The notes below the pieces were generated by a model. That model was not told the DNA's origin. It ran no database searches and was given only the letters and a program-made list of their open reading frames with translations. Positions 8,303-32,587 of a stretch of DNA of 35,556 bases are shown here, one piece after another. The DNA comes from Gemmatimonadota bacterium (GTDB lineage: Bacteria > Gemmatimonadota > Gemmatimonadetes > Gemmatimonadales > Gemmatimonadaceae): contig PMYN01000062.1 of NCBI GenBank assembly GCA_003171215.1, positions 36,234 to 71,789 on the forward strand, written 5' to 3'. The translations under genes were made by a program, and so were the position numbers. Every line of letters starts with the position of its first letter. Positions within the stretch are counted from its first letter, which is position 1.

Positions 8303-8325
8303 CTCACAAACTGCAAGGTAGGCAC

Positions 8326-11717: not shown

Positions 11718-11720
11718 TTG
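11705..11720 (+). promoter_or_regulatory. Strong ribosome-binding site deciding a TTG start for drmD
   Basis: GGAGGA at 11705-11710 lies 7 bp before TTG at 11718. No ATG or GTG nearby in this frame has comparable spacing, so TTG is the likely start codon. Confidence 0.7.
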
Positions 11721-14700
11721 ACCGGTGTACCCGCCATTCGAGATCTTCCCGAACGCCTGCCAAACGTTGGCGAACTCGTGCAAGTGCGTTCGCGCCGCTG
11801 GCTCGTCGAGGAAGTCGTCGCTGCACCGGTCGCCGGCCAGTCCTCACTCGTTCGTCTTGCCTGCGCGGACGATGACGCCCAGGGCCAGTCCCTCGACGTC
11901 TACTGGGACTATGAGCTCGACCGGCAGATCCTCGAAGAAGAGGGCTGGAACGATCTGGCTACGAAAGGCTTCGATGCGCCGCGCCAGTTCGCCGCGTTCC
12001 TGCACACGCTGCGGTGGAACTGCGTCACGGCCACTGACCCGGATCTCTTTCAGGCCCCGTTCCGTGCCGGCATCAAGATAGAGGCGTACCAGATGGAACC
12101 GCTGCGCAAAGCGCTGCGGCTGCCGAGGGTCAACCTGTTCATCGCCGACGACACGGGCCTCGGCAAGACGATTGAGGCCGGCCTGATCGCCCGTGAGTTG
12201 CTTCTCCGCCGGAAGGCGAAGGCCATCGTGGTGGCTGCGCCGCCCTCGGTGCTCGAGCAGTGGAAGGCCGAGCTCGAGGAGCGGTTCGGCCTCATGTTCG
12301 AGGTGCTCGACCGCGAATACCTGACCCGGATGCGTCGTGAGCGTGGCTTCGGGGTTAACCCGTGGCGCACCCATAGCCGCTTTCTCGTATCGCACAATCT
12401 GCTGATTGACCCGACGTACGCGGACCCCATGCGCGAATGGCTGGGGCCACTCCTGCCAGGCAGCCTACTCATCCTCGATGAGGCGCACCATGCGGCGCCT
12501 TCCAGCGGGGGACGCTACGGCATCGAAACGAAGTTCACGAGAGCCGTGCGCGACCTATCGGGCCGATTTGAGCATCGCCTCTTTCTCTCGGCCACTCCAC
12601 ACAACGGCCACTCGAACAGCTTCTCGACGTTGTTGGAATTGCTAGACCCGTATCGATTCACTCGCGGCGTCGAAGTACGCGGCAAGAAGTCGTTAGAAGA
12701 TGTAATGGTTCGGCGCCTCAAGGAGGACATCCGGGAAATCCAAGGCGGTTTCCCAAGACGTCTCGTCGAACGGATAACCCTCGACGGCCTCCCTGCGGAC
12801 GCTCCTGAACTCGTCCTCTCTCGTTTGCTTGACGAGTACCGGACCGCCCGCGATGAACGTCTGGCCAGTACCACGCGCCGGGCGCGGGCCGCGGCAGGTC
12901 TCTTGGTCGTCGGGCTGCAGCAGCGTCTGCTTTCCTCCACCGAGGCGTTCGCCAGATCACTCAAGGTTCACCGGGCCACAGTGGAACGGCAGTGGGCGAA
13001 AGGTCTAGCGGCGCCCGCTGACCGTGCAAAGACCGATGATGCCGAGAACGGCCTGTTTACCATCGCGCCCGACGCCGACGACGAGCGGAGCGAATGGACT
13101 TCGGACGAACTGGAGGCCGACGAGAAGGCGCAAATCGAAGCTGCAACGGCCGCGTCGGAGTCTGGCTCGACAAGAGACGCGGCGGCCGAAGCACTATGGC
13201 GCCGCGAGCAGGCGCTCCTTGATCAGATGCAGGAGGTCGCCGAACAGTCTCGCCACCTCCCCGATGCAAAGATGCGCCGACTGGTGGACTGGGTCCGTGC
13301 GAACCTGTGCCCAGACCTGCCGTCATTCGGCAAACGCACGCACGGCACGCCCCCGATCTGGAACAACCGTCGCGTCCTGATCTTCACCGAAAATCGAGAA
13401 GGAACCAAACGCTACCTGAAGGACCTGCTCGAGCAGGCCATTGAGGGAACCGACCGCGCCGACGAACGCATCGAGGTCATTGACGGTCTCACAAACGGGG
13501 CTCGGCGCAAAGAGATTCAGCGCCGTTTCAACACCGACCCGTCGAGAGACCCGCTGCGCATCCTGCTGGCCACCGATGCGGCGCGCGAGGGCCTGAACTT
13601 CCAGGCGCACTGCACAGACCTGTTCCACTTTGACCTGCCGTGGAATCCTGGACGCATCGAGCAGCGCAACGGGCGTATCGACCGGAAGCTTCAGCCTGCC
13701 GACGAGGTACGTTGCCACTATTTCGTTCTGCCCCAGCGCGTGGAGGACCGTGTGTTGGGCGTGCTGGTCAAGAAGACCGAGACGATCAAGCGCGAACTTG
13801 GCAGCCTTTCGAAAGTGATCGACGACGACATCGAACGGCGGCTGGGGCAGGGCATTCGACACCGTGATGCCGACGCTCTCGCACGAGAAATCGAGCAGGC
13901 CGATCTCGACGCGGAGCGAAAGCGCGTCACCGCGGAGGAGCTCGACTCGTCCCGCGACCGCAAGGAAGATCTGAAGGCGCAAATCGAACGTTGTCGGACC
14001 CTGCTCGAGCAGTCACGCACTTGGGCCGCCTTCGAGGCTGCACCGTTTCGTGATGCGCTCTCGTGCTCACTCGAACTGCTCGGTGCCGATGCGTTATTGG
14101 AATCGAAGGACGAGGAGGGTCGTCGCGTGTGGACCTTTCCGTCGCTCGATCGGCGTGCGGCGGCCGACGCGAGTTGGGCCACCACGCTGGACACGCTCCG
14201 CGCCCCGCGCAAGCAGGACCAGAAGCTGGCCGACTGGCGACGCGAGGCGCCCATCAGACCCGTCGTCTTTGAAGATGCGGGCGTTCTCACCGACGAGACC
14301 GTACACCTGCACCTCGACCAGCGCGTCGCCCAGCGCCTGCTGGCCCGTTTTCGCTCGCAGGGCTTCATCCACCATGACCTGTCGCGTGCGTGTCTTGCCC
14401 AGGCCGCTGACTCAATACCTCGCGTGATCCTGCTCGGGCGCTTGTCGCTCTATGGCCAGGGCGCGGAGCGCCTCCATGAGGAGCTGGTGCCTCTCGCCGC
14501 TCGTTGGGTAGAACCGTCCCAACGGAAGGGGCCGCTTACGGCCTATGGGCGGGAGACGGAACTGAAGACGCTCGATCTTCTGGAACGCTCGCTGGGTGAC
14601 GGCAGCCGCCGGATGCCTGGCGAGGCGATTCAGCGCAAGTTGTTGCCCTCCGCGGCCCGCGATATCGAGGAGCTCTTGCCACAGCTCGAGCCACGCGCCG

Positions 14701-15026
14701 AAGAGCTGGCCGCCCTCGCGATAGCCAGACTCAAGAAGCGCGGCGAGACCGAGGAGAAGGACCTGCGCGAGACGCTGGAGCGGCAACGTACGCGCGTTGG
14801 CGAGAAGCTCGCGAAGAACGAGAAGGACTATCTGCAGCTTACCCTCGGATTTGACCAGGAAGAGAAGCGCCAGGTCGAGTCAGACATGCGCTCATGGCGC
14901 ACGCGACTCGAACAGTTCGACCGCGATCTTGTGCACGAGCCTCGTCGGATACGCGAGTTCTACGAGGTGCGTGCGCAGCGCATCGAGCCCGTGGGACTCG
15001 TCTATCTCTGGCCGGAGACGAACTAA
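11718..15026 (+). CDS. drmD: DISARM class 1 SNF2-type helicase DrmD
   Basis: DrmD is the SNF2/RapA-like ATPase that defines class 1 DISARM, a phage-defence system that restricts incoming DNA. The 1102-residue product has a helicase N-lobe with Walker A ADDTGLGKT at residues 143-151, the DEAH box at 254-257 and the SATPHNGH motif at 291-298. The C-lobe starts near residue 550 (RVLIFTENREG) and includes ATDAAREGLNFQ and the RIEQRNGRIDR motif VI near 645-655. Long charged helical segments fill the rest, as usual for the family. The start is TTG, supported by a strong ribosome-binding site. The stop overlaps the next ATG by one base, which ties it to drmMI. All key motifs are intact. Confidence 0.93.
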   Translation: MTGVPAIRDLPERLPNVGELVQVRSRRWLVEEVVAAPVAGQSSLVRLACADDDAQGQSLDVYWDYELDRQILEEEGWNDLATKGFDAPRQFAAFLHTLRWNCVTATDPDLFQAPFRAGIKIEAYQMEPLRKALRLPRVNLFIADDTGLGKTIEAGLIARELLLRRKAKAIVVAAPPSVLEQWKAELEERFGLMFEVLDREYLTRMRRERGFGVNPWRTHSRFLVSHNLLIDPTYADPMREWLGPLLPGSLLILDEAHHAAPSSGGRYGIETKFTRAVRDLSGRFEHRLFLSATPHNGHSNSFSTLLELLDPYRFTRGVEVRGKKSLEDVMVRRLKEDIREIQGGFPRRLVERITLDGLPADAPELVLSRLLDEYRTARDERLASTTRRARAAAGLLVVGLQQRLLSSTEAFARSLKVHRATVERQWAKGLAAPADRAKTDDAENGLFTIAPDADDERSEWTSDELEADEKAQIEAATAASESGSTRDAAAEALWRREQALLDQMQEVAEQSRHLPDAKMRRLVDWVRANLCPDLPSFGKRTHGTPPIWNNRRVLIFTENREGTKRYLKDLLEQAIEGTDRADERIEVIDGLTNGARRKEIQRRFNTDPSRDPLRILLATDAAREGLNFQAHCTDLFHFDLPWNPGRIEQRNGRIDRKLQPADEVRCHYFVLPQRVEDRVLGVLVKKTETIKRELGSLSKVIDDDIERRLGQGIRHRDADALAREIEQADLDAERKRVTAEELDSSRDRKEDLKAQIERCRTLLEQSRTWAAFEAAPFRDALSCSLELLGADALLESKDEEGRRVWTFPSLDRRAAADASWATTLDTLRAPRKQDQKLADWRREAPIRPVVFEDAGVLTDETVHLHLDQRVAQRLLARFRSQGFIHHDLSRACLAQAADSIPRVILLGRLSLYGQGAERLHEELVPLAARWVEPSQRKGPLTAYGRETELKTLDLLERSLGDGSRRMPGEAIQRKLLPSAARDIEELLPQLEPRAEELAALAIARLKKRGETEEKDLRETLERQRTRVGEKLAKNEKDYLQLTLGFDQEEKRQVESDMRSWRTRLEQFDRDLVHEPRRIREFYEVRAQRIEPVGLVYLWPETN

Positions 15027-18000
15027 TGGCGGGCGCCAAACTCGACCCGGAAGTCCTGGCGCACCTTGAGTGGCTCGGTTTTGTGCGTCCGACCGGCCTG
15101 GTGGTCTCGGCCCCAGCCTTGGTGCGTGCAGGGGCGATCCTCGATCGACGCGACACCGAAGGCCAGCGGTTGCTGCGGGCTTGCATTGAGGAAAGCGTAT
15201 TCGACGTTGATGAAGATCCGGTGCCGTACTTACCGGATTTTCGTTCGTTTGCGCGGTCCGTTTTGGGTTGGAGTTTTTCGCCCAAGGGCTACGCGGGCAC
15301 CGAGGAGTGCTCGATCCCGCCAGAGTTGGAGATCCCGCTCCCCGAGTACAGCGACTCGCTACGCCCGACCTTTGCGGTCCGGGAGCTAGACCCAAAGGAA
15401 GGGGCATCGTCGTGGCAGCTCGTCGTTCAAGTGCTCGACGTCGGCCAGGACTTTGAGCGAATCGCTCGCGGCCATGGGCAACTCGAGGCTTCCGCGCACG
15501 GTCGGATGGAGCGTCTGCTCCGACAGACTGGCGTCCCTGCCGGGCTGCTGTTCAACGGCCGTGGTCTGCGCCTCATCTCCGCGCCGCGAGGAGAGAGCTC
15601 GGGTTGGATCGACTTCTCCGTCGCCGACATGGTGCAGGTCCCGGGCCGGCCGATCTCGACGGCCCTCCGACTTCTCCTCAACGAGAATCGCCTGCTCAGC
15701 CTGCCACGCGCGCAGCGCCTCGCTGCATTGCTCGACGATAGCCGGAAGTTCCAGAACGAGGTGAGCGAACGGCTGGCCGAACAGGTGCTCCATTCACTGT
15801 ATGAGCTGCTGCGCGGATTTCAGGCAGCGCACAACTCGTCAAGGGGCGAACTGCTTCGCGAACCGCTCGCGGAGCACCCCGACGAGGTCTACCGCGCCTT
15901 GCTCACGGTGGTTCTGCGGCTCGTCTTTGTTCTGTTTGCGGAAGAACGGGACATGTTCTCGAACGATGGGACGTTTGAACGCTTCTACTCGCTGGCGGGC
16001 CTCTTCGACCGTCTGCGCGAGGACGCCGCGCTTTTCCCGGACACGATGGACCAGCGCTATGGGGCGTGGGCACAGCTCCTCGTCCTCTTTCGAATGATCC
16101 ACGACGGCGCTGATTCGGGTGCCATGCGGCTGCCCAAGCGCCACGGCGTCCTCTTCGACCCTGATCGCTTCAAGTTCCTCGAGGGGCGAGCGGCATCGGG
16201 CGCCCGACAGCTGCATGAGCGCATCGAGCCGCCGCTCGTGCCCGACGGCACCATCTATCGTGCCCTCGAGAAGCTCCTCATCCTTGACGGCGAGCGCATC
16301 TCGTACCGCGCGCTCGACGTAGAGCAGATCGGCTCGGTCTACGAGACGATGATGGGGTTCCGCCTCGAGACGGCGACCGGCCGCTCGGTGGCGATCAAGG
16401 CCCAGAAGGCGCGTGGCGCGCCCACCGCGGTTGACCTCGAGGCGCTGCTGCGCGAGCCCGCGAATAAGCGCGAGAAGTGGCTCCAGGACTGCGCCGGCCG
16501 CAAGATAAGTGACAAGGTCGCGAAGGCCACGGTCGGAGCCGCAATGCTCGAGGACCTGCACGCGGCACTTCTGCCGGTGATCGATCCCGCTGCCACGCCC
16601 GACCTTGTGCCAAAGGGCGCAATGGTGCTGCAGCCGAGCGAGGAGCGCCGCCGCTCTGGCTCGCACTACACACCCCGCGCGCTCACCGAGCCGATCGTGC
16701 GCACGACGCTCGAGCCGATCCTCAAGCGACTGCGCGGAGCCGACGGCCGTCCGCCCCGGCCTGCGCAGATCCTCGACCTGAAGGTCTGCGACCCGGCGAT
16801 GGGCTCGGGCGCGTTCCTCGTCGAGGCCTGCCGGCAGCTCGGCGATGCGCTGGTCGAGGCCTGGCACGCTCACGGCGAGGTGCCCGCGATCCCGCCGGAC
16901 GAGGACGAGGTGATTTTCGCGCGCCGGCTGATCGCACAGCGTTGCCTCTACGGCGTGGACCGAAACCCTGTGGCTGTGGACCTCGCCAAGGTCTCACTCT
17001 GGCTCGTGACGCTGGCCAAGGACCATGCGCTCACCTTTGTGGACCATGCGCTGCGGCACGGGGACTCGCTGGTCGGGCTCTCGCGCAAGCAGATCGAGGC
17101 CTTCCACTGGGATACGACTATCACGTGGGACAGCCCGTTTCGAACGCTAATGCGTGATCAGTTACGCACCGTCGCGGGTCTACGCCAGCGGATTCGCGAG
17201 GCTGGCGAGGCCGTCTCGGATTGGGAGCGGCGCGACTTGTGGGACGAAGCGCAGTGCGAGTTGAGCAAGGTGCGACTCTTCGGGGATCTCGTGCTAGCGG
17301 CGTACTTCGAGGGGGAGAAACCGAAGGACCGGGAGCGGAAGCGGAGCGAATACGTGAGCGCAGTTGTCAGCGGAGAGGCTGAGCGCTATCGCGGCTGGCT
17401 TGAGGAGCGACGGCACGCCGACCCGCCCCTCGCGCCGTTTCATTGGGAGATCGAGTTTCCCGAAGTGTTCGAGCGGGAGAACCCAGGCTTCGACGCGATC
17501 GTGGGAAACCCGCCGTTCGCCGGCAAGAACGCGGTTGTCGCCGGGAACGTCGCGCACTACCCGGAATTCCTACAAGACCTGCACGCCGAGAGCCACGGCA
17601 ACGCCGACCTCGTTGCGCACTTCTTTCGGCTCGCCTTCGACCGACTTCGTAAAGACGGCGCCTTTGGCCTCATCGCAACGAACACCATCGGTCAGGGCGA
17701 CACCCGCTCGACCGGACTGCGCTGGATCTGCCAGCACGGCGGCGAGATCTTCGCCGCCACCAAACGCGTCAAGTGGCCGGGGCTGGCCGCAGTGGTAGTG
17801 AGTGTGGTCCACGTGAGCAAGGGTTCAGTTCGTGGACTTAGGCGGCTCGACAATCGGGAGGTCGCAACGATCACTGCGTTCCTCTTCCATCGTGGCAGCC
17901 ACGAGGACCCTGTCCGGCTCGCGAGCAACGCGGGAAAGAGCTTCGTCGGGAGCTATGTCCTCGGTATGGGCTTCACGTTCGATGACTCAGACACGAAGGG

Positions 18001-19012
18001 CGTCGCCACGTCGCTCGCCGAGATGCGGCGGCTAATCGCAAAGGACTCTGGCAATCAGGAAGTGATCTTTCCATATATCGGCGGTGAGGAAATCAACTCA
18101 AGCCCCACGCATTCTCACCATCGCTTCGTCATTAACTTCGGCGACAGAAGTCAGGAAGAGTGTCAGCGACGGTGGCCGGACCTCATGGCTATCGTCGAGG
18201 CCAAGGTCAAGTCCGAACGGCAGGCACTTCCTCCAAAGAACAGTTGGAATCGAGATGTTGCCGCGCGCTGGTGGCAGTTTGGAGCCGTTCGGATCGGCCT
18301 ATATCAGGCGATCACCGGCCTCTCACGTTTTCTTGCGCATCCCAATGTCTCGCAGAACCTCGGCTTCGCTTTCTTGCCCGCAGGAACGATCGTCGGTATG
18401 CCTCACAACGTGTTTGCGCTGACTGAGTTTCAGTCGTTCTGCGCCCTCCAGTCCCGCCCGCACGAGCTCTGGGCGCGGTTCTTCGGGTCGTCGATGAAGG
18501 ACGATCTCCGTTACACCCCCTCCGACTGCTTCGAGACCTTCCCCTTTCCCGAGAACTGGGATACCAACGCCGCTCTTGAAGCCGCAGGCAAGGCCTACTA
18601 CGAGTTCCGCGCCGCGCTGATGGTCCGGAACGACGAGGGCCTGACCAAGACCTACAACCGCTTTCACGATCCCGACGAACGCGACCCGGAGATCGTGAAG
18701 CTCCGTGAGCTGCACGCCGCCATGGACCGCGCCGTGCTCGATGCCTACGGCGGGAACGACATCTCGACCGAATGCGAGTTCCTCCTCGACTACGAGATCG
18801 ACGAGGAGGAGTGGGGCAACAAGAAGAAGCCGTACCGCTACCGCTGGCCCGACGAGGTCCGAGACGAGGTGCTGGCACGACTCCTCGAATTCAACGCCAA
18901 GCGTGCGCAGGAGGAGGTGGGTTCCGGCGTTGCGGCGGCAGCGAAGAAACAAGACAAGAAGGCGGCGAAGCGTGGGCCCAGGGAATCAGCTACAGGGGAT
19001 CTCTTCTCATGA
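15026..19012 (+). CDS. drmMI: DISARM class 1 N6-adenine DNA methyltransferase DrmMI
   Basis: DrmMI is the host-marking methylase of class 1 DISARM, which is thought to let the cell tell its own DNA from phage DNA. The 1328-residue protein resembles type IIG/Eco57I-like enzymes: a long N-terminal helical part, a SGSHYTPRALT segment near residue 543, SAM-binding motif I DPAMGSGAF at 589-597 and the catalytic adenine-methylase motif NPPF at 828-831. A TaqI-type target-recognition region lies in the C-terminal third. An N-terminal nuclease domain is not evident. The frame is open upstream to 14894, but the ATG at 15026 overlapping the drmD stop is the natural start. The stop overlaps drmA by 4 bp. 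The recognition sequence cannot be read from the protein. Confidence 0.92.
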   Translation: MAGAKLDPEVLAHLEWLGFVRPTGLVVSAPALVRAGAILDRRDTEGQRLLRACIEESVFDVDEDPVPYLPDFRSFARSVLGWSFSPKGYAGTEECSIPPELEIPLPEYSDSLRPTFAVRELDPKEGASSWQLVVQVLDVGQDFERIARGHGQLEASAHGRMERLLRQTGVPAGLLFNGRGLRLISAPRGESSGWIDFSVADMVQVPGRPISTALRLLLNENRLLSLPRAQRLAALLDDSRKFQNEVSERLAEQVLHSLYELLRGFQAAHNSSRGELLREPLAEHPDEVYRALLTVVLRLVFVLFAEERDMFSNDGTFERFYSLAGLFDRLREDAALFPDTMDQRYGAWAQLLVLFRMIHDGADSGAMRLPKRHGVLFDPDRFKFLEGRAASGARQLHERIEPPLVPDGTIYRALEKLLILDGERISYRALDVEQIGSVYETMMGFRLETATGRSVAIKAQKARGAPTAVDLEALLREPANKREKWLQDCAGRKISDKVAKATVGAAMLEDLHAALLPVIDPAATPDLVPKGAMVLQPSEERRRSGSHYTPRALTEPIVRTTLEPILKRLRGADGRPPRPAQILDLKVCDPAMGSGAFLVEACRQLGDALVEAWHAHGEVPAIPPDEDEVIFARRLIAQRCLYGVDRNPVAVDLAKVSLWLVTLAKDHALTFVDHALRHGDSLVGLSRKQIEAFHWDTTITWDSPFRTLMRDQLRTVAGLRQRIREAGEAVSDWERRDLWDEAQCELSKVRLFGDLVLAAYFEGEKPKDRERKRSEYVSAVVSGEAERYRGWLEERRHADPPLAPFHWEIEFPEVFERENPGFDAIVGNPPFAGKNAVVAGNVAHYPEFLQDLHAESHGNADLVAHFFRLAFDRLRKDGAFGLIATNTIGQGDTRSTGLRWICQHGGEIFAATKRVKWPGLAAVVVSVVHVSKGSVRGLRRLDNREVATITAFLFHRGSHEDPVRLASNAGKSFVGSYVLGMGFTFDDSDTKGVATSLAEMRRLIAKDSGNQEVIFPYIGGEEINSSPTHSHHRFVINFGDRSQEECQRRWPDLMAIVEAKVKSERQALPPKNSWNRDVAARWWQFGAVRIGLYQAITGLSRFLAHPNVSQNLGFAFLPAGTIVGMPHNVFALTEFQSFCALQSRPHELWARFFGSSMKDDLRYTPSDCFETFPFPENWDTNAALEAAGKAYYEFRAALMVRNDEGLTKTYNRFHDPDERDPEIVKLRELHAAMDRAVLDAYGGNDISTECEFLLDYEIDEEEWGNKKKPYRYRWPDEVRDEVLARLLEFNAKRAQEEVGSGVAAAAKKQDKKAAKRGPRESATGDLFS

Positions 19013-22000
19013 ACACGCGGTCCGATCGCAGCGCGCCCGCTGACTCCGTAGAGGTGCGCGCGCGGCTAGTCGAGGCACTCAAACTCGATCTCGTGGGCCC
19101 TTGGGCGGGTCATGCCTACTCGACCGAGAAGCTCCCTGGCAGGGAGCGCCCCTCGAATCGCTACCTGACTGGTTTCCTCATCCCCTCGGGTACGCCGCCG
19201 GAGAAGAGCGGTGATAGCGATGAGGACGAGGATGAGGGCGTAGTGCCCGAGTCGGCTGGCCTCATCGAGGAGTCGAACGAAGAGCGCAAAGCTGCGAAGA
19301 AGGGGTTCTTCCCATCATCGATGGGCTTGAGCTTCCTTGTTCCGCAGGGAGCGCGCGAGATCGCCGTCACCGTACGCTGGGGCGAGTATACCACCGAGAG
19401 GGTTGAAGAGGACGGGGAAGCGCTCGACGTCTGGCAGCGCGCACCGCGGGAGGAACTGGTCTCGGTTTCACTGGATGGGGCACCAGACCCGGCGGCCCAC
19501 CGCATCCGTGGCTCTCGGGGGCTCCATCTCGAGGTCGTCGAGCGACAGATCGAGGCAGAGGACCTCGAGGGACGCATTCCTGACGGAACGCGCTCGGTCT
19601 CGGTGTTTCTCGTCAACCATCGCGAGCCGGTAAAGGAGAAGGACGGAGAGCCGGACCTGGCCTACGCGTTTCAGCCAGAGCTTGAGGTGCGGAGCGAGTG
19701 CGCCTTTGTACCGCGCCCCGATCTTCGTGGTGCTCGATCGCAAGAGTGGGATGAGCGGGTCTCTGACCTCCACTATGCCGACACCCCAGAGTATGCGACG
19801 GGCCACGGCATCTCGGCGGAATGGGAGATCGTCGATGGGGCCTGTCATGTACTGCGCACCGCGTGGATTCCGTGCGCTCAAGTAGAAAAGACTGAAACCG
19901 TGAAGATGCCGGGAGTCGAGCTCTCCATGCAGGCGCTGGGAGCGCTGCCCAACGGTGCTGCTGTGGCGGCTGCACTGACCCCGCTCGTGGTCAAGTATCG
20001 GGAGTGGATTGAGGTGGCGAGGGCAGGCGCCGCGTCGCTAGAGCAGCAGCAACGAGAGTCAGCGGAAGAGCTCCTTCGACTTGCTGGCGTAGCAGCCACG
20101 CGGATTGAGCGCGGCATTTCAGTCCTGAACAGCGATGCCAACGCGCTTGATGCCTTCCGTGTAGCGAACCGCGCCGTCGCTCGGGCGCTGCGGAAGCGGC
20201 TGAAGATAGAGGAACCCGAGTGGCGTGCATTTCAGCTCGCCTTCGTCCTGCTGAATCTTCCTGGGCTCGCTGACCCCAACGATGCAAACCGCAATACCGT
20301 GGACCTGCTGTTCTTCCCCACCGGTGGCGGAAAGACGGAGGCGTACCTCGGGCTCGCCGCGTTCGCGATGGTACTGCGGCGGCTACGTCATCCTGGCGAC
20401 CATGGGCGGGTTGGGGCCGGCGTGAGCGTGATCATGCGCTACACGCTGCGCCTACTTACTCTGGACCAGCTTGGACGAGCCGCCGGCCTGGTGTGCGCGC
20501 TTGAACTCGAACGCGAGCAGGATGTCACTCGGTACGGTGAATGGCCATTCGAGATCGGATTGTGGGTGGGAAAGGCCGCCACGCCCAACGTGCTCGGGTA
20601 CAAGGGGTACAAAGGATCGGGCGACGCACGCTCGAAGGTGCGCCACTTCAAGAGCGACCCAAAGGGCAGGCCCTCGCCCATCCCACTCGAGAACTGCCCG
20701 TGGTGCGGCACGCGCTTCGAACCTGACTCATTCAATCTCCGGCCCGACGACAACCATCCGCGCGAGTTACGCATCGTGTGTGCGAACTTCGAATGCGACT
20801 TCGCGCGAGACCGACCGCTGCCGATTATCGCCGTGGATGAGCCTATCTACCGAAGGCTTCCGGCGTTTCTCATTGCCACAGTGGACAAGTTCGCCTCGCT
20901 CCCGTTCGTGGGTGCAGCAGGAATGCTGCTCGGCGGCGCAGACCGATACGATGCGTCGGGATTCTTCGGGGCTGCGGAGCCCAACCTAGGAACGCGCTTG
21001 GCGGAGCCGCTTCCTCCGCCCGACTTGGTGATCCAAGACGAGCTGCACTTGATCGCGGGTCCGCTCGGGACGATGGCGGGGCTCTACGAGACGGCCATTG
21101 AGGAACTGTGCACACGGCAGATTGACGGCCGCACCGTGCGACCCAAGATCGTTGCTTCCACCGCGACTGTTCGCCGGGCGCAGGACCAGATTCAGGCGCT
21201 CTTTGCTCGACCGCTCACCCAGGTATTTCCTCCTCCGGGCCCTGATCGGCGCGATTCGTTCTTTGCGCACACGGTGCCGGCCTCCCAAGTTCCCGCTCGC
21301 TTGTATGTGGGCATTGCGTCTCAAGGTCGCAATCCGAAGGTCATGATGCGGAAGGTGCTGCTGGCACTCATGGGTGCCGCAGAGCGTGCCTACCGCGACG
21401 CCGGCGGGGAGACGAACGAGAGCAACCCCGCCGATCCGTACATGACCATGCTCGGTTACTTCAATAGCCTGCGTGAGTTGGGCGGTGCGCGACGCATTCT
21501 GGAGGAAGAAGTCCAGAACACCATGAAATCGTATGGCGCGCGCAAGCGCATTGGTGAAAATCGCGGGCTGTTTCAGGACCGAAAGACCTTCACCGAGGTG
21601 CTCGAACTCACCTCCCGTGTCTCCACCGACAAGGTCGCGGAGGCACGTCGTCGCCTGGAAGCTCCGTTCCACAAGATCTACCAACGCGTGGACTGTGCGA
21701 TCGCGACGAACATGATTTCGGTCGGCCTGGATATTCCCAGGCTTGGGCTCATGGTGGTGCTCGGCCAGCCCAAGACACACGCCGAGTACATCCAGGCGAC
21801 GAGCCGTGTCGGGCGAACGGATAGCGGGCCAGGGCTCGTGGTGACGTTGCTCAACGTCCACAAACCGCGAGATCGCTCCCACTACGAGCGTTTCCGGCAC
21901 TACCACGAGACGTTCTACCGCTCGGTGGAGGTGGCCAGCGTCACGCCGTTCGCTGCGCGTGCGCTCGACCGCGGCTTCGCCGGGGCGCTCGTCGCTCTGG

Positions 22001-22389
22001 CTCGTCATATCCTGCCGGCCCTGGCACCAGCGAGGGGCGTGGAGCAAATCGCGACTGTTCGGCCGGAGCTTGAACGCCGGCTTCTTGACGCCTTCTTGAG
22101 CAGGGTGCAGGAGCAGCCGTTCGCGAGTGATGACGAGCGCAACGAACGGCTCCGGAGCGTGCAGAATCGCGTCGTGGACCTGCTTGATTCCTGGCGCAAG
22201 GTGTTCGACGACTACCATTCGGTGGCCGTCGCAATGCAGTACCAGAAGTACGAACTGAAGGACGCGAAGCCGCTGCTGCGTGATATGCTGGACGAGGTGT
22301 TCGAGAGCGAACACCATCGAAAGTTCCGGGCGAATAGGTCGCTGCGCGACGTGGAGCCCAATGTGAACCTCTTCCTGAGAACCCTGTGA
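19009..22389 (+). CDS. drmA: DISARM helicase DrmA
   Basis: DrmA is a core DISARM protein present in both classes; with DrmB it forms the DNA-sensing and translocating complex. The 1126-residue product has Walker A with GGGKT at 439-443 (FFPTGGGKTEAY), a four-cysteine probable zinc site (Cys563, Cys566, Cys591, Cys596), the Walker B box DELH at 677-680 and the C-terminal helicase motifs NMISVGLDIPR and QATSRVGR (929-936). The N-terminal 400 residues have no obvious enzyme motif. The ATG at 19009 overlaps the drmMI stop (ATGA), so translation is coupled. The length and motifs agree with known DrmA proteins; nothing appears broken. Confidence 0.93.
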   Translation: MNTRSDRSAPADSVEVRARLVEALKLDLVGPWAGHAYSTEKLPGRERPSNRYLTGFLIPSGTPPEKSGDSDEDEDEGVVPESAGLIEESNEERKAAKKGFFPSSMGLSFLVPQGAREIAVTVRWGEYTTERVEEDGEALDVWQRAPREELVSVSLDGAPDPAAHRIRGSRGLHLEVVERQIEAEDLEGRIPDGTRSVSVFLVNHREPVKEKDGEPDLAYAFQPELEVRSECAFVPRPDLRGARSQEWDERVSDLHYADTPEYATGHGISAEWEIVDGACHVLRTAWIPCAQVEKTETVKMPGVELSMQALGALPNGAAVAAALTPLVVKYREWIEVARAGAASLEQQQRESAEELLRLAGVAATRIERGISVLNSDANALDAFRVANRAVARALRKRLKIEEPEWRAFQLAFVLLNLPGLADPNDANRNTVDLLFFPTGGGKTEAYLGLAAFAMVLRRLRHPGDHGRVGAGVSVIMRYTLRLLTLDQLGRAAGLVCALELEREQDVTRYGEWPFEIGLWVGKAATPNVLGYKGYKGSGDARSKVRHFKSDPKGRPSPIPLENCPWCGTRFEPDSFNLRPDDNHPRELRIVCANFECDFARDRPLPIIAVDEPIYRRLPAFLIATVDKFASLPFVGAAGMLLGGADRYDASGFFGAAEPNLGTRLAEPLPPPDLVIQDELHLIAGPLGTMAGLYETAIEELCTRQIDGRTVRPKIVASTATVRRAQDQIQALFARPLTQVFPPPGPDRRDSFFAHTVPASQVPARLYVGIASQGRNPKVMMRKVLLALMGAAERAYRDAGGETNESNPADPYMTMLGYFNSLRELGGARRILEEEVQNTMKSYGARKRIGENRGLFQDRKTFTEVLELTSRVSTDKVAEARRRLEAPFHKIYQRVDCAIATNMISVGLDIPRLGLMVVLGQPKTHAEYIQATSRVGRTDSGPGLVVTLLNVHKPRDRSHYERFRHYHETFYRSVEVASVTPFAARALDRGFAGALVALARHILPALAPARGVEQIATVRPELERRLLDAFLSRVQEQPFASDDERNERLRSVQNRVVDLLDSWRKVFDDYHSVAVAMQYQKYELKDAKPLLRDMLDEVFESEHHRKFRANRSLRDVEPNVNLFLRTL

Positions 22390-22414
22390 CTGCCTTCATG
22401 GGGGAGGTCCGCGC

Positions 22415-24208
22415 GTGAGCAACAAAGCCGACGGACAGATACGGCGTGGGCAGGTCATCACTACTTACGGCCCCGGCGCACTCATCGACCTCCCGAAGGA
22501 GTCCGCCATAGTCGGAGGCCTTGATACGTGGCCGAAGGTCAGTGACCTCCAAGAGATCATCGAGACCCGACTCACGCAGAAAATGCAGCTCATGACGGGC
22601 GTTCCGGCACCGCGGTTATATGCGCCACCTCCTGATACTGAAGTCTTGGGCAAGTTCCCCCTTGGCATCGTGGCCTGGCGGTTTCCGGAATGGTTTGTTG
22701 TTCAGGACGCAATCGACGATTCTAGTCGTACGCGCTCCCGCCGATTGGTGAATCGGAGAGCGCTCGACGACAAAGGGCGGTTTGAGGGCAAGTCGGTGGT
22801 AGCGACACGCTTTGTGCGAGCATGCGTAAAGGGACACGTGGACGACATCGACTGGCAGCAGTATGTACATGGCATCGAGGACGGCTGCAAGCGTCCACTC
22901 TGGCTCGATGAGCGCGGCACCAGCGGCGACTTGGCCGAGCTCAATGTCCGGTGCGAGTGCAAAAAGTCCCGCGGGTTGTACGAGGCGACGGTCATCGAGG
23001 CCAATCCGCTCGGGACCTGCCGTGGGGCACGCCCTTGGCTCGGCAAGAACTCGAGAGAGGATTGCAAGCTGCCAAGCCGGCTTCTGATTCGCACGGCATC
23101 AAACGCGTACTTCCCCCAGGTGGTGAGTGTGCTGTCGTTGCCGGACCGGGGGACCGCAGTCGAGAGAGTGGTGCGCGACCTTTGGGACGACCTGCAGATC
23201 GTTGATGATGCGGCTGACCTTTCCCTTCTCAAGAAGAAGCCGAAGATCGCAGAGCGGCTTTCGCCGTTCTCGAACGAGGAGATCCTGACGACTGTTGAGC
23301 AGGTCAAGCACGGAAAGGTCGGCGACAAGCCGGTGAAGCAGGTGGAGCTCGAGGCGCTGCTCGCGGCGCCCGAGGGATTCGGCGACGATGTGCCCGTTGA
23401 TCCTAACTTCCACGCCCGTCGGCTTCCGGCCGGCGTCTGGCGCAAGAGCACTCGATACGACGGCATCGAGGCAGTCATCCAGCTTCATCGTCTGCGCGAG
23501 GTGCTGGCACTCGTCGGGTTCACGCGACTCGAGGCCGTCACCCCGGACATCAACGGCGAATACGAGACCGACGTCGAACGAGCCCAGATCGCCCTGGAGC
23601 CGCGTTGGTTCCCTGCGGTAGAGAACCGGGGCGAGGGGGTGTTCATCCAGCTTCGAGCGGCGGCCATGACGAGCTGGGCCAAGCGGCCGGGGGTGCAACG
23701 GCGGGTCGAGAGTCTCGCGTTGGGCCACGCGCGGTGGATGGAAGACCGCAAGACGAAGCGTCTGTTCCCCGGTGGGCCGTACGTTCTGTTGCACACGCTC
23801 TCCCACCTGCTCATCCAGTCGCTGGCAATGCGCTGTGGGTACCCTGCCAGTTCCATCCGAGAGCGGGTGTACGCCGACCCGGACACGGAGCGCTACGGTG
23901 TGCTGCTGTACACGGGTAGTCCGGACGCGGACGGCACGCTCGGAGGCCTGGTAGCCGAGGCGCGACACATGGAGGACCATTTGACGCAGGCGCTGCGGAT
24001 GAGCGCGCTCTGTTCGAATGACCCCATCTGTGCGCAGCACGAGCCCGGAAAGAGTTTCGAGGGACGGCTGCTCCACGGAGCTGCGTGTCACGGCTGTGCC
24101 CTCGTTGCGGAGACGTCCTGCGAGATGAGGAACGACTATCTCGACCGGGCGCTGGTGGTGCCCGTGTTGGGTCTCGCCGACGCCGCGTTCTTCGCGGGGC
24201 ACGCGTGA
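22415..24208 (+). CDS. drmB: DISARM protein DrmB (DUF1998)
   Basis: DrmB is the DUF1998 partner of DrmA and a core component of all DISARM systems. The 597-residue product begins with the very characteristic RRGQVITTYGPGALIDLP segment followed by IVGGLDTW. The C-terminal DUF1998 domain spans about residues 440-590, with LLHTLSHLLIQSL near 458 and a cysteine set (Cys533, Cys539, Cys558, Cys561, Cys569) that probably binds zinc. The GTG at 22415 is preceded by GGAGG at 7 bp. The gap of 25 bp after drmA is the largest inside the DISARM operon. The stop overlaps the drmC start. Confidence 0.94.
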   Translation: MSNKADGQIRRGQVITTYGPGALIDLPKESAIVGGLDTWPKVSDLQEIIETRLTQKMQLMTGVPAPRLYAPPPDTEVLGKFPLGIVAWRFPEWFVVQDAIDDSSRTRSRRLVNRRALDDKGRFEGKSVVATRFVRACVKGHVDDIDWQQYVHGIEDGCKRPLWLDERGTSGDLAELNVRCECKKSRGLYEATVIEANPLGTCRGARPWLGKNSREDCKLPSRLLIRTASNAYFPQVVSVLSLPDRGTAVERVVRDLWDDLQIVDDAADLSLLKKKPKIAERLSPFSNEEILTTVEQVKHGKVGDKPVKQVELEALLAAPEGFGDDVPVDPNFHARRLPAGVWRKSTRYDGIEAVIQLHRLREVLALVGFTRLEAVTPDINGEYETDVERAQIALEPRWFPAVENRGEGVFIQLRAAAMTSWAKRPGVQRRVESLALGHARWMEDRKTKRLFPGGPYVLLHTLSHLLIQSLAMRCGYPASSIRERVYADPDTERYGVLLYTGSPDADGTLGGLVAEARHMEDHLTQALRMSALCSNDPICAQHEPGKSFEGRLLHGAACHGCALVAETSCEMRNDYLDRALVVPVLGLADAAFFAGHA

Positions 24209-24987
24209 TTGCGACCCTGATTGATCTTCCAAGCCATCTGCGTGCGCGCTTGGCGAGTGCGCTCGAGTCTGGGCAACTCGCGATGCCGTGTACGGTCGTT
24301 TCGTTGCGGTCGGTTCTCGGGAGCGCAGAGCACATCGAGGAAGTGCGGATTGCGCTCGCAACCTTGGAGCAAGGGGGCATGAGTGGCGTGGCCATCGCCG
24401 CGTGGATTCGCGGCGTTGAGGCGGCGACATCCCGAGCGCTCCGGCCGGACCTCGTCTGGTCTGGCCCGGAGGTGCCGGGGTTGCACGCGCGCGACACGCG
24501 CCGTGTCTACGAGGAGCTGTTGGGGTCCGCCGAGCGAAGCGTGCTCGCGACTACCTACGCGTTCTTTGATGGTCCGAAGGCATTTCAGGTGTTAGCGGCA
24601 CGTTTGGACAAGACGCCGGGACTTCAGGTCACGCTGCTGCTCAACATCCAGCGCAGGCGCGGCGAGACGACAAAGGCTGAAGACCTGATACGCCGATTTG
24701 CGGACCGCTTCTGGTCCACGGACTGGCCGGGGACCTCGCGGCCGAGCGTGTTCTACGATCCGCGCGCGTTGGAATTGGAAGGACCCGGTGGCGTGTTGCA
24801 CGCGAAGGCGGTGGTGGTTGACCACGAGGCCGTGTTTGTGACGTCGGCCAATCTCACCGAGGCGGCGCTTGATCGCAACATCGAGATGGGACTCCTGCTA
24901 CGCGATCGGGCGTTGGCGGCCAGCGTTTCTCTCCACTTCCACACGCTGATTGAGCGTGGGATGTTGCATCCGTTGCCGGCGAGTTGA
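24205..24987 (+). CDS. drmC: DISARM phospholipase D-like protein DrmC
   Basis: DrmC is the PLD-superfamily component of DISARM; it is predicted to be a nuclease, but published work found it is not strictly needed for protection. The 260-residue protein has a typical PLD fold pattern: VYEELLGSAERSVLATTYAF near residues 107-125 and an HKD motif with His199, Lys201 and Asp206 followed by VTSANLTEAALDRNIEMG. Only this one full HKD motif is visible, so an active site would need a dimer. The GTG at 24205 overlaps the drmB stop (GTGA). It is the last gene of the DISARM operon; a 92-bp gap follows. Confidence 0.92.
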   Translation: MIATLIDLPSHLRARLASALESGQLAMPCTVVSLRSVLGSAEHIEEVRIALATLEQGGMSGVAIAAWIRGVEAATSRALRPDLVWSGPEVPGLHARDTRRVYEELLGSAERSVLATTYAFFDGPKAFQVLAARLDKTPGLQVTLLLNIQRRRGETTKAEDLIRRFADRFWSTDWPGTSRPSVFYDPRALELEGPGGVLHAKAVVVDHEAVFVTSANLTEAALDRNIEMGLLLRDRALAASVSLHFHTLIERGMLHPLPAS

Positions 24988-25079
24988 AGAGAAGTTGGCG
25001 GCGCCGAGCGCCGTGAAGACGGTCTGCGGCATCAACGAACGGAAGCGCGTGCTTCCGGACATCTGGAGTGTGACACGAA
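24988..25079. promoter_or_regulatory. Gap between drmC and the type IV restriction gene, with small hairpin
   Basis: The 92-bp gap holds a perfect inverted repeat GGAAGC-GCGT-GCTTCC at 25041-25056 without a T-run, so it is more likely an mRNA processing or operator element than a terminator. A GGAG lies about 11 bp before the next ATG. The next gene could be read through from the DISARM promoter. Confidence 0.35.
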
Positions 25080-27182
25080 ATGAAAGCTACGGAAGCAAAA
25101 CTTCTCGGATTCCTGCAGAAATCGCCGCAGTTCATCATACCGATCTACCAGCGCGCATACTCCTGGACTGACAAGCAGTGTCGCCAACTGTGGGATGACA
25201 TCATTCGAGCCGGGTCGAATGAGGCGATCAGCGTTCATTTCATCGGGTCCATCGTGTATGTGGAACAGGGGCTCTCGCAGGTGTCGCATCGGGCGCCTCT
25301 GCTGGTGATCGACGGGCAGCAACGGCTCACAACCGTTTCGTTGCTCCTCGAGGCTTTGGCGCGCGCGTTCGGAGAGACCGATTTCATCGACGATTTCTCG
25401 GCCGCCAAGATCCGCTATTACTGGCTCACAAACCTTCACGAGGAAGGCGATCGCTACTTCAAGCTGCTTCTCTCTCAAACCGACAACGGGTCGCTCAAGG
25501 CGCTGATTCGGAATGGCGAACTGCCGCATGAACCATCGCTGCGTATAACGCAAAACTTCGAGCTCTTCACTGAACTCCTGAAAGCGCAGAAGGGAGACCT
25601 CGGGCCCGTTTGCCGAGGGCTCGCGAAGTTGGTGGTCGTGGACATTGCCCTCAACCGCGACCAGGACAACCCGCAGCTCATCTTCGAGAGTATGAACTCG
25701 ACGGGGAAGGAGTTGAGTCAGGCGGACCTCATTCGAAACTTCGTCCTCATGGGTCTCGAGCCTCACCTCCAGACGCGTTTGTACGAGGAGTTCTGGCGCC
25801 CGATGGAACAGGACTTCGGACAAGAGGCCTATGGAACGCAGTTCGACAGCTTCATGCGCCACTACCTCACGCTGCGTTCGGGAGAAATACCCCGCGAGAG
25901 CGACGTCTATGAGGCCTTCAAAGACTACGCCCGATCCAAGCCCGTACTGGACGCAGGAATCGAGGCGTTGGTCAAAGAGATTCGCGCGTTCGCACGGTAC
26001 TTTTGCGCGATGGCCCTCGGTGCCGAGGAGGATGCGGCCTTGCGCCAGGGTTTCCACGATCTGCGCGAACTCAAGGTTGATGTGGCGTATCCGTTCTTGT
26101 TGGAGCTCTATCACGACTACGCGAGCAACGTTTTGAGTGCCGGTGAGTTTGAGCTGGCTGTCCGATTGATCGAGGCGTATGTGTTCCGCCGGGCCATCTG
26201 CGCGATCCCGACGAACTCGATGAACAAGACGTTCGCGACGTTTGGACGGGCGCTCAAGAAGGAGCGCTACCTCGAAAGCCTTCGGGCACATTTCCTCACG
26301 TTGCCATCATACCGACGGTTCCCCGGTGACGACGAGTTCCAGCGCGCGTTGCGCACGCGCGATCTCTATCATTTTCCGCGTCGATCCTACTGGCTCCGCC
26401 GCCTGGAAAACCACGACCGTAAAGAGCGAGTGGCAGTGGATGAGTACACGATCGAACACATCCTGCCGCAGAATCCCAACCTATCGGCTGCGTGGAGGCA
26501 GGCCCTCGGGTCCGAGTGGGAGCGTGTGCAACAGCAGTGGTTGCATACGCTCGGCAACCTGACGTTGACCGGATACAACGCCGAATACAGTGACCGCTCG
26601 TTCGCAGAGAAGCGTGACATGACGGGTGGCTTCAGCCAGAGTCCGCTGAAACTCAACGCCGGGCTCGGCCAGCTGACGGATTGGAACGAGGCAGCCATTG
26701 AAGAGCGAGCAGGACGGTTGGCGGCCCAGGCGATCACCGTATGGGCAGCGCCGATTCTCGATGCAGCTGTGCTCGCTGAATATCAACCACAGAAGCCGTC
26801 AGCGGCTCCTGGCTACAGCATCAATGATCATCCGAATCTGCTCAATCCTGCGATGCGGCCTTTGTTCGAGACGTTCCGCCACGAAGTGCTCGCCCTCGAC
26901 CCATGCGTGAGCGAGTCGTTCATGAAGTTGTACGTGGCGTACAAGGCCGAGACGAACTTCGTTGATGTGGTGCCGCAGGCGAGTCGTCTGCGGCTGAGCC
27001 TCAACATGGCGTTCGCTGACATCAACGACCCGCAGGGACGGTGCAGGGATGTGACCGGTCTCGGGCGCTGGGGTAATGGTGATGTTGAAGCCGAACTGAA
27101 GACGCTTGACGAGTTGCCATACGTTCTCGGGCTGGTGCGCCAGTCATTCGAGCGCCAGATGGGGGAGGGGGGCCAGCAGTAG
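25080..27182 (+). CDS. GmrSD-like type IV restriction enzyme (DUF262-DUF1524-DUF5655)
   Basis: Proteins of this architecture, such as GmrSD and the BREX-associated BrxU, use a nucleotide-dependent DUF262 domain and an HNH nuclease domain to cut modified phage DNA. In this 700-residue single-chain version, IPIYQRAYSW near residue 19 and DGQQRLTT at 78-85 mark the ParB/Srx-like DUF262 nucleotide site, and the NSTGKELSQADLIRNF segment follows near 206. The HNH-like DUF1524 domain shows EHILPQNP (His460) and LGNLTLTGYNAEYSD near 490-505. The last 100 residues, including YVAYKAETNFVDVVPQ and DINDPQGRCRDVTG, fit DUF5655. All motifs look intact. It lies on the DISARM strand 92 bp downstream, so it adds a second layer acting on modified DNA. 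The substrate preference is inferred. Confidence 0.88.
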   Translation: MKATEAKLLGFLQKSPQFIIPIYQRAYSWTDKQCRQLWDDIIRAGSNEAISVHFIGSIVYVEQGLSQVSHRAPLLVIDGQQRLTTVSLLLEALARAFGETDFIDDFSAAKIRYYWLTNLHEEGDRYFKLLLSQTDNGSLKALIRNGELPHEPSLRITQNFELFTELLKAQKGDLGPVCRGLAKLVVVDIALNRDQDNPQLIFESMNSTGKELSQADLIRNFVLMGLEPHLQTRLYEEFWRPMEQDFGQEAYGTQFDSFMRHYLTLRSGEIPRESDVYEAFKDYARSKPVLDAGIEALVKEIRAFARYFCAMALGAEEDAALRQGFHDLRELKVDVAYPFLLELYHDYASNVLSAGEFELAVRLIEAYVFRRAICAIPTNSMNKTFATFGRALKKERYLESLRAHFLTLPSYRRFPGDDEFQRALRTRDLYHFPRRSYWLRRLENHDRKERVAVDEYTIEHILPQNPNLSAAWRQALGSEWERVQQQWLHTLGNLTLTGYNAEYSDRSFAEKRDMTGGFSQSPLKLNAGLGQLTDWNEAAIEERAGRLAAQAITVWAAPILDAAVLAEYQPQKPSAAPGYSINDHPNLLNPAMRPLFETFRHEVLALDPCVSESFMKLYVAYKAETNFVDVVPQASRLRLSLNMAFADINDPQGRCRDVTGLGRWGNGDVEAELKTLDELPYVLGLVRQSFERQMGEGGQQ

Positions 27183-27276
27183 GCCAGCTCGCGCGCATCT
27201 TGACTCATGCTTGCCGGGCGACTCTCGCGCAGTTCGGCGCGCGGGAGCCGTCGCCATCTAGGACGGATGCCATGAA

Positions 27277-27312
27277 GGAAAGAGGGCCAACCGCTAGGTT
27301 GGCCCTCTTTCC
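27277..27312. terminator. Bidirectional rho-independent terminator
   Basis: A perfect 16-bp stem (27277-27292 with 27297-27312) with the tetraloop GCTA separates the plus-strand type IV restriction gene from the convergent minus-strand gene ending at 27314. The stem has an A/G-rich left arm and a matching T/C-rich right arm, so it can stop transcription from both sides. Confidence 0.88.
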
Positions 27313-27313
27313 C

Positions 27314-27853
27314 TCATAGTATCTCGTAGTTGCAGCCCGGCCACAACGGGCTGTCGAGGGCCTCGTTGATTGCCCGTCGGAGCGACGATTCGCCGTATCG
27401 CGACTCGAGGCGATTCCACGTCTCCTGACTGCTCGGCCCGTCCTCGACGCGCCAGGTCCGTAGACACGACGAGTACTCGAGATACAGAAACTCCCCGTCG
27501 GCCCGAATCCCAACGCGCCACTGGTGGTGAATCTCGTCTTCCTCGTCGGCGCCTTCCACGTCCGGGTACGCCGCGCGGTACTCCTCGTCTTCGTCTGAAG
27601 GTGTGCACTCCTCGATGTGATTCGCCGTCACAAGTTTCGCGACGAGCGGTCCAGCAGTTGAAGTCGGCATTGCGGTATTGGTGTTGGCGGGACAGAAGTG
27701 CCCCGCGACCACACCGTATCTGCCCTCGAGCGGCGTCCGCAACTGGTCCGGAGTGTCGAGCGACGTCCGTCCCACGGTCCCGAAAGTGTGTGCCCGATTG
27801 GCGCCGGCATGCTCACGCGGCGGCGGGACCAACGCCGGATTGTCGCGTGCCAT
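27314..27853 (-). CDS. Hypothetical acidic protein
   Basis: From the ATG at 27853 (GGAAG 6 bp upstream) the product has 179 residues; a shorter start at 27670 would leave 118. The central part is acidic (PSDEDEEYRAAYP, EGADEEDEIHHQW), followed by a likely beta-rich segment (GEFLYLEYSSCLRTW) and a C-terminal helix ending ALDSPLWPGCNYEIL. No known domain is recognised. It is convergent with the restriction gene across the shared terminator, and divergent from the adenine methylase gene. It could be a satellite accessory protein; function unknown. Confidence 0.55.
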   Translation of the reverse strand: MARDNPALVPPPREHAGANRAHTFGTVGRTSLDTPDQLRTPLEGRYGVVAGHFCPANTNTAMPTSTAGPLVAKLVTANHIEECTPSDEDEEYRAAYPDVEGADEEDEIHHQWRVGIRADGEFLYLEYSSCLRTWRVEDGPSSQETWNRLESRYGESSLRRAINEALDSPLWPGCNYEIL

Positions 27854-27989: not shown

Positions 27990-28493
27990 ATGCGTAAGAA
28001 GATGCTCCCCTCAACGAAGCAGAAGTCCCGCGGCGCGCGCGGCTACATCCCCGTCTCGAAGACGGACAACTGGGCCACCCCGCAGTATCTCTACGACGAA
28101 TACAATGCGAAGTACCAGCTGACCTGCGATGCGGCGGCCTCGGCTCGCAACACCAAGTGCCCGAAGTTTTTCACGAAGAAGCAGGACGGACTGAAGCAGG
28201 ACTGGGGCACCGAACGGGTGTGGTGCAACCCGCCGTACGGCCGCGTGCTCGGAAAGTGGATGCAGAAGGCGGACGACGCGTGCCGCGCCGGCGCGACGGT
28301 CGTTATGCTCGTCCCGTCCCGCACCGACACGAAATGGTTCCACAAAATCGCGATGAAGCGCAAGAAAGTGTTCCTGAAGGGACGGGTGAAGTTCGGCAAC
28401 GGCAAATCGCCGGCGCCGTTCCCGAGCCTGGTCGTGGTGTTCACGCCGAGAGCGCGCCGGCGCGGCGCGGCGGGCACGGCGGCCACGCGCTGA
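27990..28493 (+). CDS. Phage-type DNA N6-adenine methyltransferase (Dam family)
   Basis: The 167-residue product matches the small phage N6-adenine methyltransferases of the Dam type found in many prophages and satellites. It has the family opening DNWATPQYLYDEYNAKY, a CDAAASARNTKCPKFF segment and the catalytic NPPY at residues 80-83, followed by a VVMLVPSRTDTKWFH strand-helix element. The C-terminal end is basic. Such enzymes usually methylate element DNA, perhaps to avoid restriction. It stands alone on the plus strand between a divergent gene and a strong hairpin, so it is a single-gene transcription unit. Target sequence unknown. Confidence 0.87.
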   Translation: MRKKMLPSTKQKSRGARGYIPVSKTDNWATPQYLYDEYNAKYQLTCDAAASARNTKCPKFFTKKQDGLKQDWGTERVWCNPPYGRVLGKWMQKADDACRAGATVVMLVPSRTDTKWFHKIAMKRKKVFLKGRVKFGNGKSPAPFPSLVVVFTPRARRRGAAGTAATR

Positions 28494-28525
28494 CCGCGGC
28501 GCCCGTAACACGACCGACCAGGCCA

Positions 28526-28565
28526 CGGCAGCCCCCGAGCGCATCGCTCGGGGGCTGCCGTTCTT
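28526..28565 (+). terminator. Hairpin terminator after the adenine methylase gene
   Basis: A perfect 16-bp GC-rich stem (28526-28541 with 28545-28560) with a 3-base loop is followed by TTCTT. It lies 32 bp after the methylase stop and 20 bp before the end of the convergent primase gene, so it may serve both directions. Confidence 0.75.
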
Positions 28566-28585
28566 CGGAGGCCGCCGTGCAGGCC

Positions 28586-30106: not shown

Positions 30107-30424
30107 GGACGAACGTGAGCGATCGGAGGTGTCGGCACCTGCACACCGGGGTGGTGGCCGAGCGGCCGACGGACCTTGGCAGAGAGGAGGGGGCGGGAGG
30201 CCCGCCGCAAGTCTTTTCATCCATTTCGCTCGACTTCCGAACGATTCCTCGTCATCGCTCTTCCAAGATTTTCTGGAAGATCGATGAAAAGGATTAATCG
30301 ATGAGTGGCTGACACTCCCTCGTGCGCTGACGTCGGCGACGTCGGACGACGCGATCCTGTTGGCGGATCGCGCGTTGCTTTCCCTGTCCCTGTAGCGTGC
30401 CGGGGTTCGCCTTGGCCGCTCGCC
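30107..30424. promoter_or_regulatory. 318-bp intergenic region upstream of the primase-helicase gene
   Basis: No gene is supported here. An AT-rich part at 30240-30300 has an inverted repeat TCTTCCA/TGGAAGA near 30261-30282 and a direct repeat ATCGATGA at about 30281 and 30298. These are candidate operator or replication-protein sites on the side where the primase promoter should be. Confidence 0.4.
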
Positions 30425-31138: not shown

Positions 31139-31297
31139 GGGGGGCCGAGGACGAGAGAGGGCTGCATTCTCTCTCCAGGGTGTGTGAGACGGGAGGCAGC
31201 CGACAATACTCCCGATCCTATCAGTGGCCGTCGCCGTGCGTTGGCGACGGCCTCTCCACGATCGCATCTACGCCGTCTGGCTCCGCGTCCGCCGAGG

Positions 31298-32050: not shown

Positions 32051-32181
32051 TGAGGTGTGGGGTGCGGGACGCCGCGAGCTGCAGTGGAGCATTGTCGAGG
32101 ACGGGGACCGCCGTCTATGGCACCGTACGCGTTCGCCCCGGCCGAACCCGCGCGAAGGCCACGCCAGGGTACGCTGGTCGC

Positions 32182-32544
32182 ATGACCCCATTCTTGCTTG
32201 ACGAGATCGTCGAGAGAATGGTCAGTCGCGTCCGAAAGTCGGCGGAACTCGCGATCCAGGCGGCGCAGTGGTCCCCGGACCCCGCGTCACCCGCGGCATT
32301 CGGAGTGACTTTCTTTCAAGTTCTGCATCGCGAGACGGAGCTGGTGCACGCGTTGCTGGCTGGCGCATCCGTTGACGAGGCACACCTGCTCGCGGAGCGC
32401 GCGCTGATTTATCTCGCGCTGAAAGCGAATGTCGCTCGCGAATCGACCGAGGAGCGGGCGGCGCTGCACGTCGTCTTGTGTGAGCTTGAGCTCGACCTCC
32501 GATCGTGGCGCCAGGCGGGCACGGAGCAAGTGCCACCAGTGTAG
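32182..32544 (+). CDS. Hypothetical helical protein
   Basis: From the ATG at 32182 the product has 120 residues and is predicted all-helical: FLLDEIVERMVSRVRKS, then ELVHALLAGASVDEAHLLAE and RAALHVVLCELELDLRSW. The start is divergent from paralogue B, with 131 bp between, and the stop faces the convergent gene ending at 32588. A palindrome GGCGTGCACGCC (32562-32573) lies between these two stops and may be a weak transcription stop. Longer upstream frame (to 32050) looks non-coding. Function unknown. Confidence 0.55.
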   Translation: MTPFLLDEIVERMVSRVRKSAELAIQAAQWSPDPASPAAFGVTFFQVLHRETELVHALLAGASVDEAHLLAERALIYLALKANVARESTEERAALHVVLCELELDLRSWRQAGTEQVPPV

Positions 32545-32587
32545 TCGCTGTACCAAACGCAGGCGTGCACGCCTTGCGGGCGCCGGG

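Follow-up and report, generated by a model that had tools for sequence, protein, structure and literature searches.

This locus raises the question of what a GmrSD-family gene is doing directly behind a DISARM operon, and whether the two could act as a two-layer defence, as an initial annotation had proposed. The window, meaning the whole 35,556-nucleotide stretch of Gemmatimonadota DNA that was analysed, carried a complete class 1 DISARM operon at 11718-24987 on the + strand, in the order drmD-drmMI-drmA-drmB-drmC. All five products strongly matched the PADLOC families that define class 1 DISARM (DrmD, DrmMI, DrmA, DrmB, and DrmC), and the helicase, NPPF, and HxK motifs were present in the DISARM proteins. 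drmD (11718..15026, +) encoded a SNF2-like helicase with Walker A GLGKT and DEAH motifs (PDLC02621, 1016 bits); its start is uncertain and was taken as the listed TTG. drmMI (14894..19012, +), whose ORF overlaps drmD and whose start is also uncertain, encoded an MmeI/Eco57I-like N6-adenine methyltransferase (PDLC02643, 1302 bits) with the NPPF motif and Pfam matches to Eco57I, MmeI_Mtase, and MmeI_TRD. drmA (18772..22389, +) overlapped drmMI, again with an uncertain start, and encoded a YprA-family helicase with GGGKT and DELH motifs (PDLC02575, 921 bits). It was followed by drmB (22415..24208, +), encoding a DUF1998/MZB-domain protein (PDLC02583, 3.5e-86; Pfam MZB), and, with a 4-bp overlap, by drmC (24205..24987, +), encoding a PLD-family nuclease with a HAKAVVVD motif (PDLC02587, E=2.5e-82; Pfam PLDc_2). 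The class 1 DISARM of Serratia (PMC9142583) shares these five genes; its operon contains a C5 methylase, whereas none was found in the window's genome, and of the two operons it is the window's that is followed by a GmrSD gene.

The gene behind drmC (25080..27182, +) encoded a protein of 700 aa and contained no internal stop. Pfam placed GmrSD_N/DUF262 (PF03235) at residues 11-222 (E 7.4e-36), GmrSD_C/DUF1524 (PF07510) at residues 415-549 (E 2.1e-25), and DUF5655 at residues 591-691 (E 3.5e-11). The motifs PIYQR21, DGQQR78, FESMN202, EHILPQ459, and GNLTLTGYN492 were intact and conserved in the orthologues, so that the protein held both the QR, DGQQR, and FxxxN motifs expected of DUF262 and a DUF1524 His-Me finger whose H460, N493, and N500 were invariant in alignments with relatives. 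Length and motifs were common to nine orthologues, with whose starts (MKA...) the ATG at 25080 aligned. Because these motifs are intact, we regard the product, from its sequence, as very probably a modification-dependent nuclease of type IV that consists of a single chain. In PADLOC the protein matched HEC-06 at 217 bits and its best-scoring model was labelled Orf5; structure prediction gave a poor model, with a mean pLDDT of 59. The closest characterised counterpart is Eco94GmrSD (Machnicka 2015, PMC4619093; He 2015, PMC4437046), which likewise joins DUF262 and DUF1524 in one chain, has DGQQR and His-Me motifs, and lies in a defence island beside RM genes. The window protein differs in its extra C-terminal DUF5655 and its DISARM neighbour, and its target is only predicted.

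The initial annotation had placed an intact DUF262-DUF1524-DUF5655 gene 92 bp downstream of drmC, in the same orientation and with no strong terminator in between, and this was borne out. The spacer (24988..25079, +) contained no terminator-like site on the + strand in a consensus terminator scan, and the region 24980-25090 folded no better than its shuffles (z=-0.3). A 7-bp perfect hairpin at ~25040-25058 was considered as a terminator and rejected, since it lacks a T-run and the fold is unremarkable. After the GmrSD gene, by contrast, a strong palindromic hairpin of 16 bp at ~27273-27317 (+) marked a candidate transcript end; the fold of 27182-27330 gave z=-6.1, none of 200 shuffles was as stable, and the T-run was imperfect. 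In position the gene resembles a final gene of the DISARM operon, and the single transcript that had been suggested is possible, as read from the shared strand, the spacer, and the hairpin after the gene. GC content was 58.7% in the GmrSD gene versus 63-64% in DISARM; given this lower value, the gene may have been acquired separately from DISARM and could carry its own promoter.

The surroundings were examined for the origin of this arrangement. An integrase gene (6115-7725, -) lay on one flank of DISARM and GmrSD, and a phage-type Dam gene with a D5/DUF5906 primase (27990-30220) on the other, which suggests that DISARM and GmrSD are cargo of an integrated mobile element. Host genes such as engA and plsY occupied the left end of the window, and the contig ended where the window ended; neither element-end direct repeats nor a tRNA turned up. 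Three minus-strand ORFs at 30425-34642 (280, 297, and 293 aa) had no Pfam match.

To see how often such a gene accompanies DISARM, we listed the best 80 DISARM loci from a species-genome collection by DrmA alignment and sampled up to 10 kb on each side of drmA, 1.37 Mb in total. GmrSD-family ORFs, detected with an iterative profile, lay near drmA in 9 of these best 80 loci, when about 0.6 loci were expected from the genome-average density of PF03235 in 70 of these genomes. The enrichment that had been predicted near DISARM was thus found relative to the genome average, but it did not significantly exceed that near type I RM: of 87 type I R genes in 50 of the same genomes, 4 had a GmrSD within 10 kb, a difference short of significance (p=0.15). 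As a control this is rough, in that contig ends cut both sets, R genes were taken only at E ~1e-10 or better, and GmrSD was detected with a local profile near DISARM and with PF03235 near type I RM. The proposed survey of the 2 kb after drmC fared worse. A same-strand GmrSD gene lay within 2 kb after drmB/drmC in only 2 of 59 loci (L023 and L035), their proteins being distant from the window's (17-38% identity) and of different clades, and no DISARM-specific GmrSD pair emerged. No GmrSD was found in those DISARM loci most like the window's whose sequence was visible at that position (e.g. L009, L013, L014, L017, L022, L037, L046, and L057), nor after drmC in the same-phylum DISARM genomes sampled, on the sequence available. 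Two sister loci of the same phylum carried a GmrSD gene ~11 kb upstream of drmA, and Deinococcus AJ005 had one near DISARM.

The same loci showed where foreign genes settle in DISARM. The interval between drmMI and drmA exceeded 700 bp in 25 of 52 loci, and in three of the 52 (L027, L043, and L065) it held a GmrSD gene; the other interval genes sampled encoded, among others, DarT, macro-domain proteins, C5 methylases, TIR (ThsB), RloB, YhcG, and HTH/peptidase M78 proteins. The genes after drmC were also varied, GmrSD_N being the most frequent Pfam family there, yet with only 3 of 50 proteins. From the variety of defence genes at both places we conclude that DISARM has insertion-tolerant positions, which are used by many of them. 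In four loci (L068 8370-9995, L072 8391-10019, L075 8379-10013, and L078 8357-9992) a gene pair of similar sizes lay between drmMI and drmA; four sampled interval proteins matched HTH and peptidase M78 (CapP/RmrA-like), and these loci probably carry a protease-type regulator within the DISARM operon.

We further investigated the company kept by relatives of the window gene. A search of 395 genomes of the phylum found it at 60% identity or more in only three besides the window's own. The nearest relative (G021, 76%) lay inside a type I RM operon and overlapped hsdM and hsdS by one base each; in that operon (L103, G021:C34, 3008-13539) DarT/DarG additionally stood between hsdS and hsdR. The second (G026, 70%) was upstream of an MmeI-like enzyme on the same strand, and a SIR2/STALD gene followed by a short gene (L104, G026:C27, 10655-12580) was divergent from this pair. 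The third (G019, 63%), also a GmrSD-DUF5655 protein, was encoded 118 bp after DruE2-DruK of Druantia II on the same strand, with DruM2 and DruF2 upstream; this locus (L116, G019:C1:4193500-4212500, 1036-17482) has the same add-on behind another YprA-helicase system. Plasmid relatives at ~53-69% identity were found in or near type I/type III RM in Ruegeria, Picosynechococcus, Sulfitobacter, and E. coli: the Ruegeria gene (61%) was embedded in type I RM, and type I or III RM adjoined those of Picosynechococcus, E. coli OHT76, and pSTEC639. No RM system adjoined the plasmid relatives in Planktothrix, Aminobacter, and Arthrobacter, and the enzyme can therefore apparently do without a partner. The search of viral contigs returned no close relatives. 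In a maximum-likelihood tree the window gene was sister to the G021 gene (100/98) and the DISARM-linked GmrSDs were scattered, with long branches making the deep joins unsure. Since the DISARM-linked genes are scattered and close relatives have other partners, the GmrSD-DISARM pairing arose several times independently. Judged by its gene neighbourhoods, the clade is a mobile add-on that has attached itself to methylation-based systems again and again.

Such behaviour has precedents. Machnicka et al. 2015 (PMC4619093) reported type I RM as the system with which GmrSD genes are most often clustered. TgvAB, embedded in the type I RM operon of VPI-2, acts on Tevenvirinae independently of HsdR (PMC11411939). 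Like the window gene, TgvAB and HEC-06 of Hma loci are GmrSD-like genes set in another defence operon. TgvAB, which is active against hypermodified phages, consists of two proteins, however, and the host operons of TgvAB and HEC-06 are type I RM or Hma instead of DISARM. The initial annotation had pointed to BrxU, which complements BREX (Picton 2021, PMC8565348). The likeness lies in a type IV GmrSD-family gene within a methylation-based defence locus and in complementary protection, and this logic agrees with what is published for BREX (PMC8565348) and type I RM (PMC11411939). In other respects the analogy is loose. BrxU lies between brxC and pglX, whereas the window gene follows drmC in a DISARM locus, and BrxU (7P9K/7P9M, PMC8565348) was absent from the PDB sequence matches at E<1, which returned SspE, 9jfl, and 20yv.

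The target base can be narrowed by the methylases that coexist with the clade. We dropped the lack of a C5-cytosine methylase in the window's genome as support for a 5mC cutter, since several relatives of the species without the GmrSD gene likewise lacked such methylases, and the genomes with the closest orthologues (G019, G021, and G026) had them; in G019 one is DruM2, a few genes upstream. If these are active, the enzymes of the clade should leave plain 5mC uncut in those contexts, something not expected of a 5mC cutter and different from the broad range of BrxU, which includes 5mC (PMC10952713). This tolerance points to sugar-hmC or other hypermodified bases as the likely target, as for Eco94GmrSD and TgvAB, instead of plain 5mC.

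How far the two systems belong together was weighed against several other readings. DISARM and GmrSD might be chance neighbours in a defence island, unrelated cargo of one mobile element that is separately expressed and linked by nothing beyond defence. The integrase and phage-type primase on the flanks, the lower GC of the GmrSD gene, its independent acquisitions in the tree, and its near-equal frequency beside type I R genes (4/87) and DISARM (9/80 of the best loci listed; p=0.15) all agree with this, and we give it a minor but real share of the probability. It accounts less well for a gene that lies 92 bp away on the same strand, with a terminator-like site lacking in the spacer and a strong hairpin behind the gene, or for relatives that repeatedly sit in or directly after such operons, with one-base overlaps with hsdM and hsdS in G021 and 118 bp after DruK in G019. 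The opposite reading, a dedicated and selected pair in which the enzyme is a component of a DISARM subtype, could appeal to L023 and L035, which carry GmrSD directly after drmC, and to Deinococcus AJ005. These enzymes, at 17-38% identity, do not form one clade, the sampled DISARM genomes of the phylum had no GmrSD after drmC, and the nearest relatives have other partners; the survey of DISARM loci thus largely refuted this reading, which we consider highly improbable. We read the DISARM-GmrSD arrangement as another instance of a habit known from type I RM, BREX, and Hma, and not as a dedicated DISARM partnership.

The protein might also be another kind of DUF262/DUF1524 effector, for example one sensing a DISARM-linked state or, like SspE, phosphorothioate, in which DUF5655 would supply another trigger. 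Some room for it is left by weak PDB matches to SspE, by a C-terminal DUF5655 of no known function that also matched PADLOC PDC-S18, and by the failure to find literature joining GmrSD and DUF5655. We nevertheless think it improbable, as no Ssp genes occurred among the window genes examined, residues 1-556 have the motifs and the domain order of a single-chain GmrSD, and the clade's partners methylate both adenine and cytosine, which leaves no common mark to sense. A bolder extension would make the DUF262-DUF1524-DUF5655 clade a general module, terminal or embedded in operons, with a functional coupling to methylation-based systems, among them both YprA-helicase systems, DISARM and Druantia II. 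It would use the promoter of its host system, perhaps work on the same DNA intermediates, and recognise a non-5mC modification with the help of DUF5655. We consider this extension improbable.

The reading we favour, and regard as fairly probable, makes the single-chain GmrSD type IV enzyme an exchangeable addition to the 3' end of a class 1 DISARM operon within a probable integrated mobile element, where it adds an independent, complementary layer against base-modified phages. DISARM, which includes the N6-adenine methylase DrmMI, would attack foreign DNA without the host mark. The GmrSD enzyme would sense modified bases through its NTP-dependent DUF262 and cut with its His-Me DUF1524 domain; its targets would be phages that evade DISARM by means of hypermodified cytosines. 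Such escape is plausible, because the DrmAB ATPase is stimulated less by methylated DNA (PMC9142583). The two layers would work independently, probably from one transcript, and the partnership would be opportunistic, as the same enzyme clade joins type I, MmeI-like, and type III RM and Druantia II loci. We infer the activity of the enzyme, its target base, co-transcription, and complementarity with DISARM from the gene and its setting. The two-layer defence first proposed for this locus is plausible; the gene is intact and placed as a last gene of the operon would be. A link special to DISARM is not supported, and the tree contains no DISARM-specific clade.

No publication on a DISARM-GmrSD pair was found in a literature search that fell short of most subscription journals. 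With this locus and its relatives, DISARM and Druantia II join the methylation-based defences that have a type IV enzyme as a neighbour. The finding supports the view that type IV enzymes are swappable add-ons, which close the escape route of base-modified phages. Moreover, close relatives occur in genomes with C5-cytosine methylases, one of these methylases belonging to a Druantia II operon, and this limits what the clade can recognise as its target.
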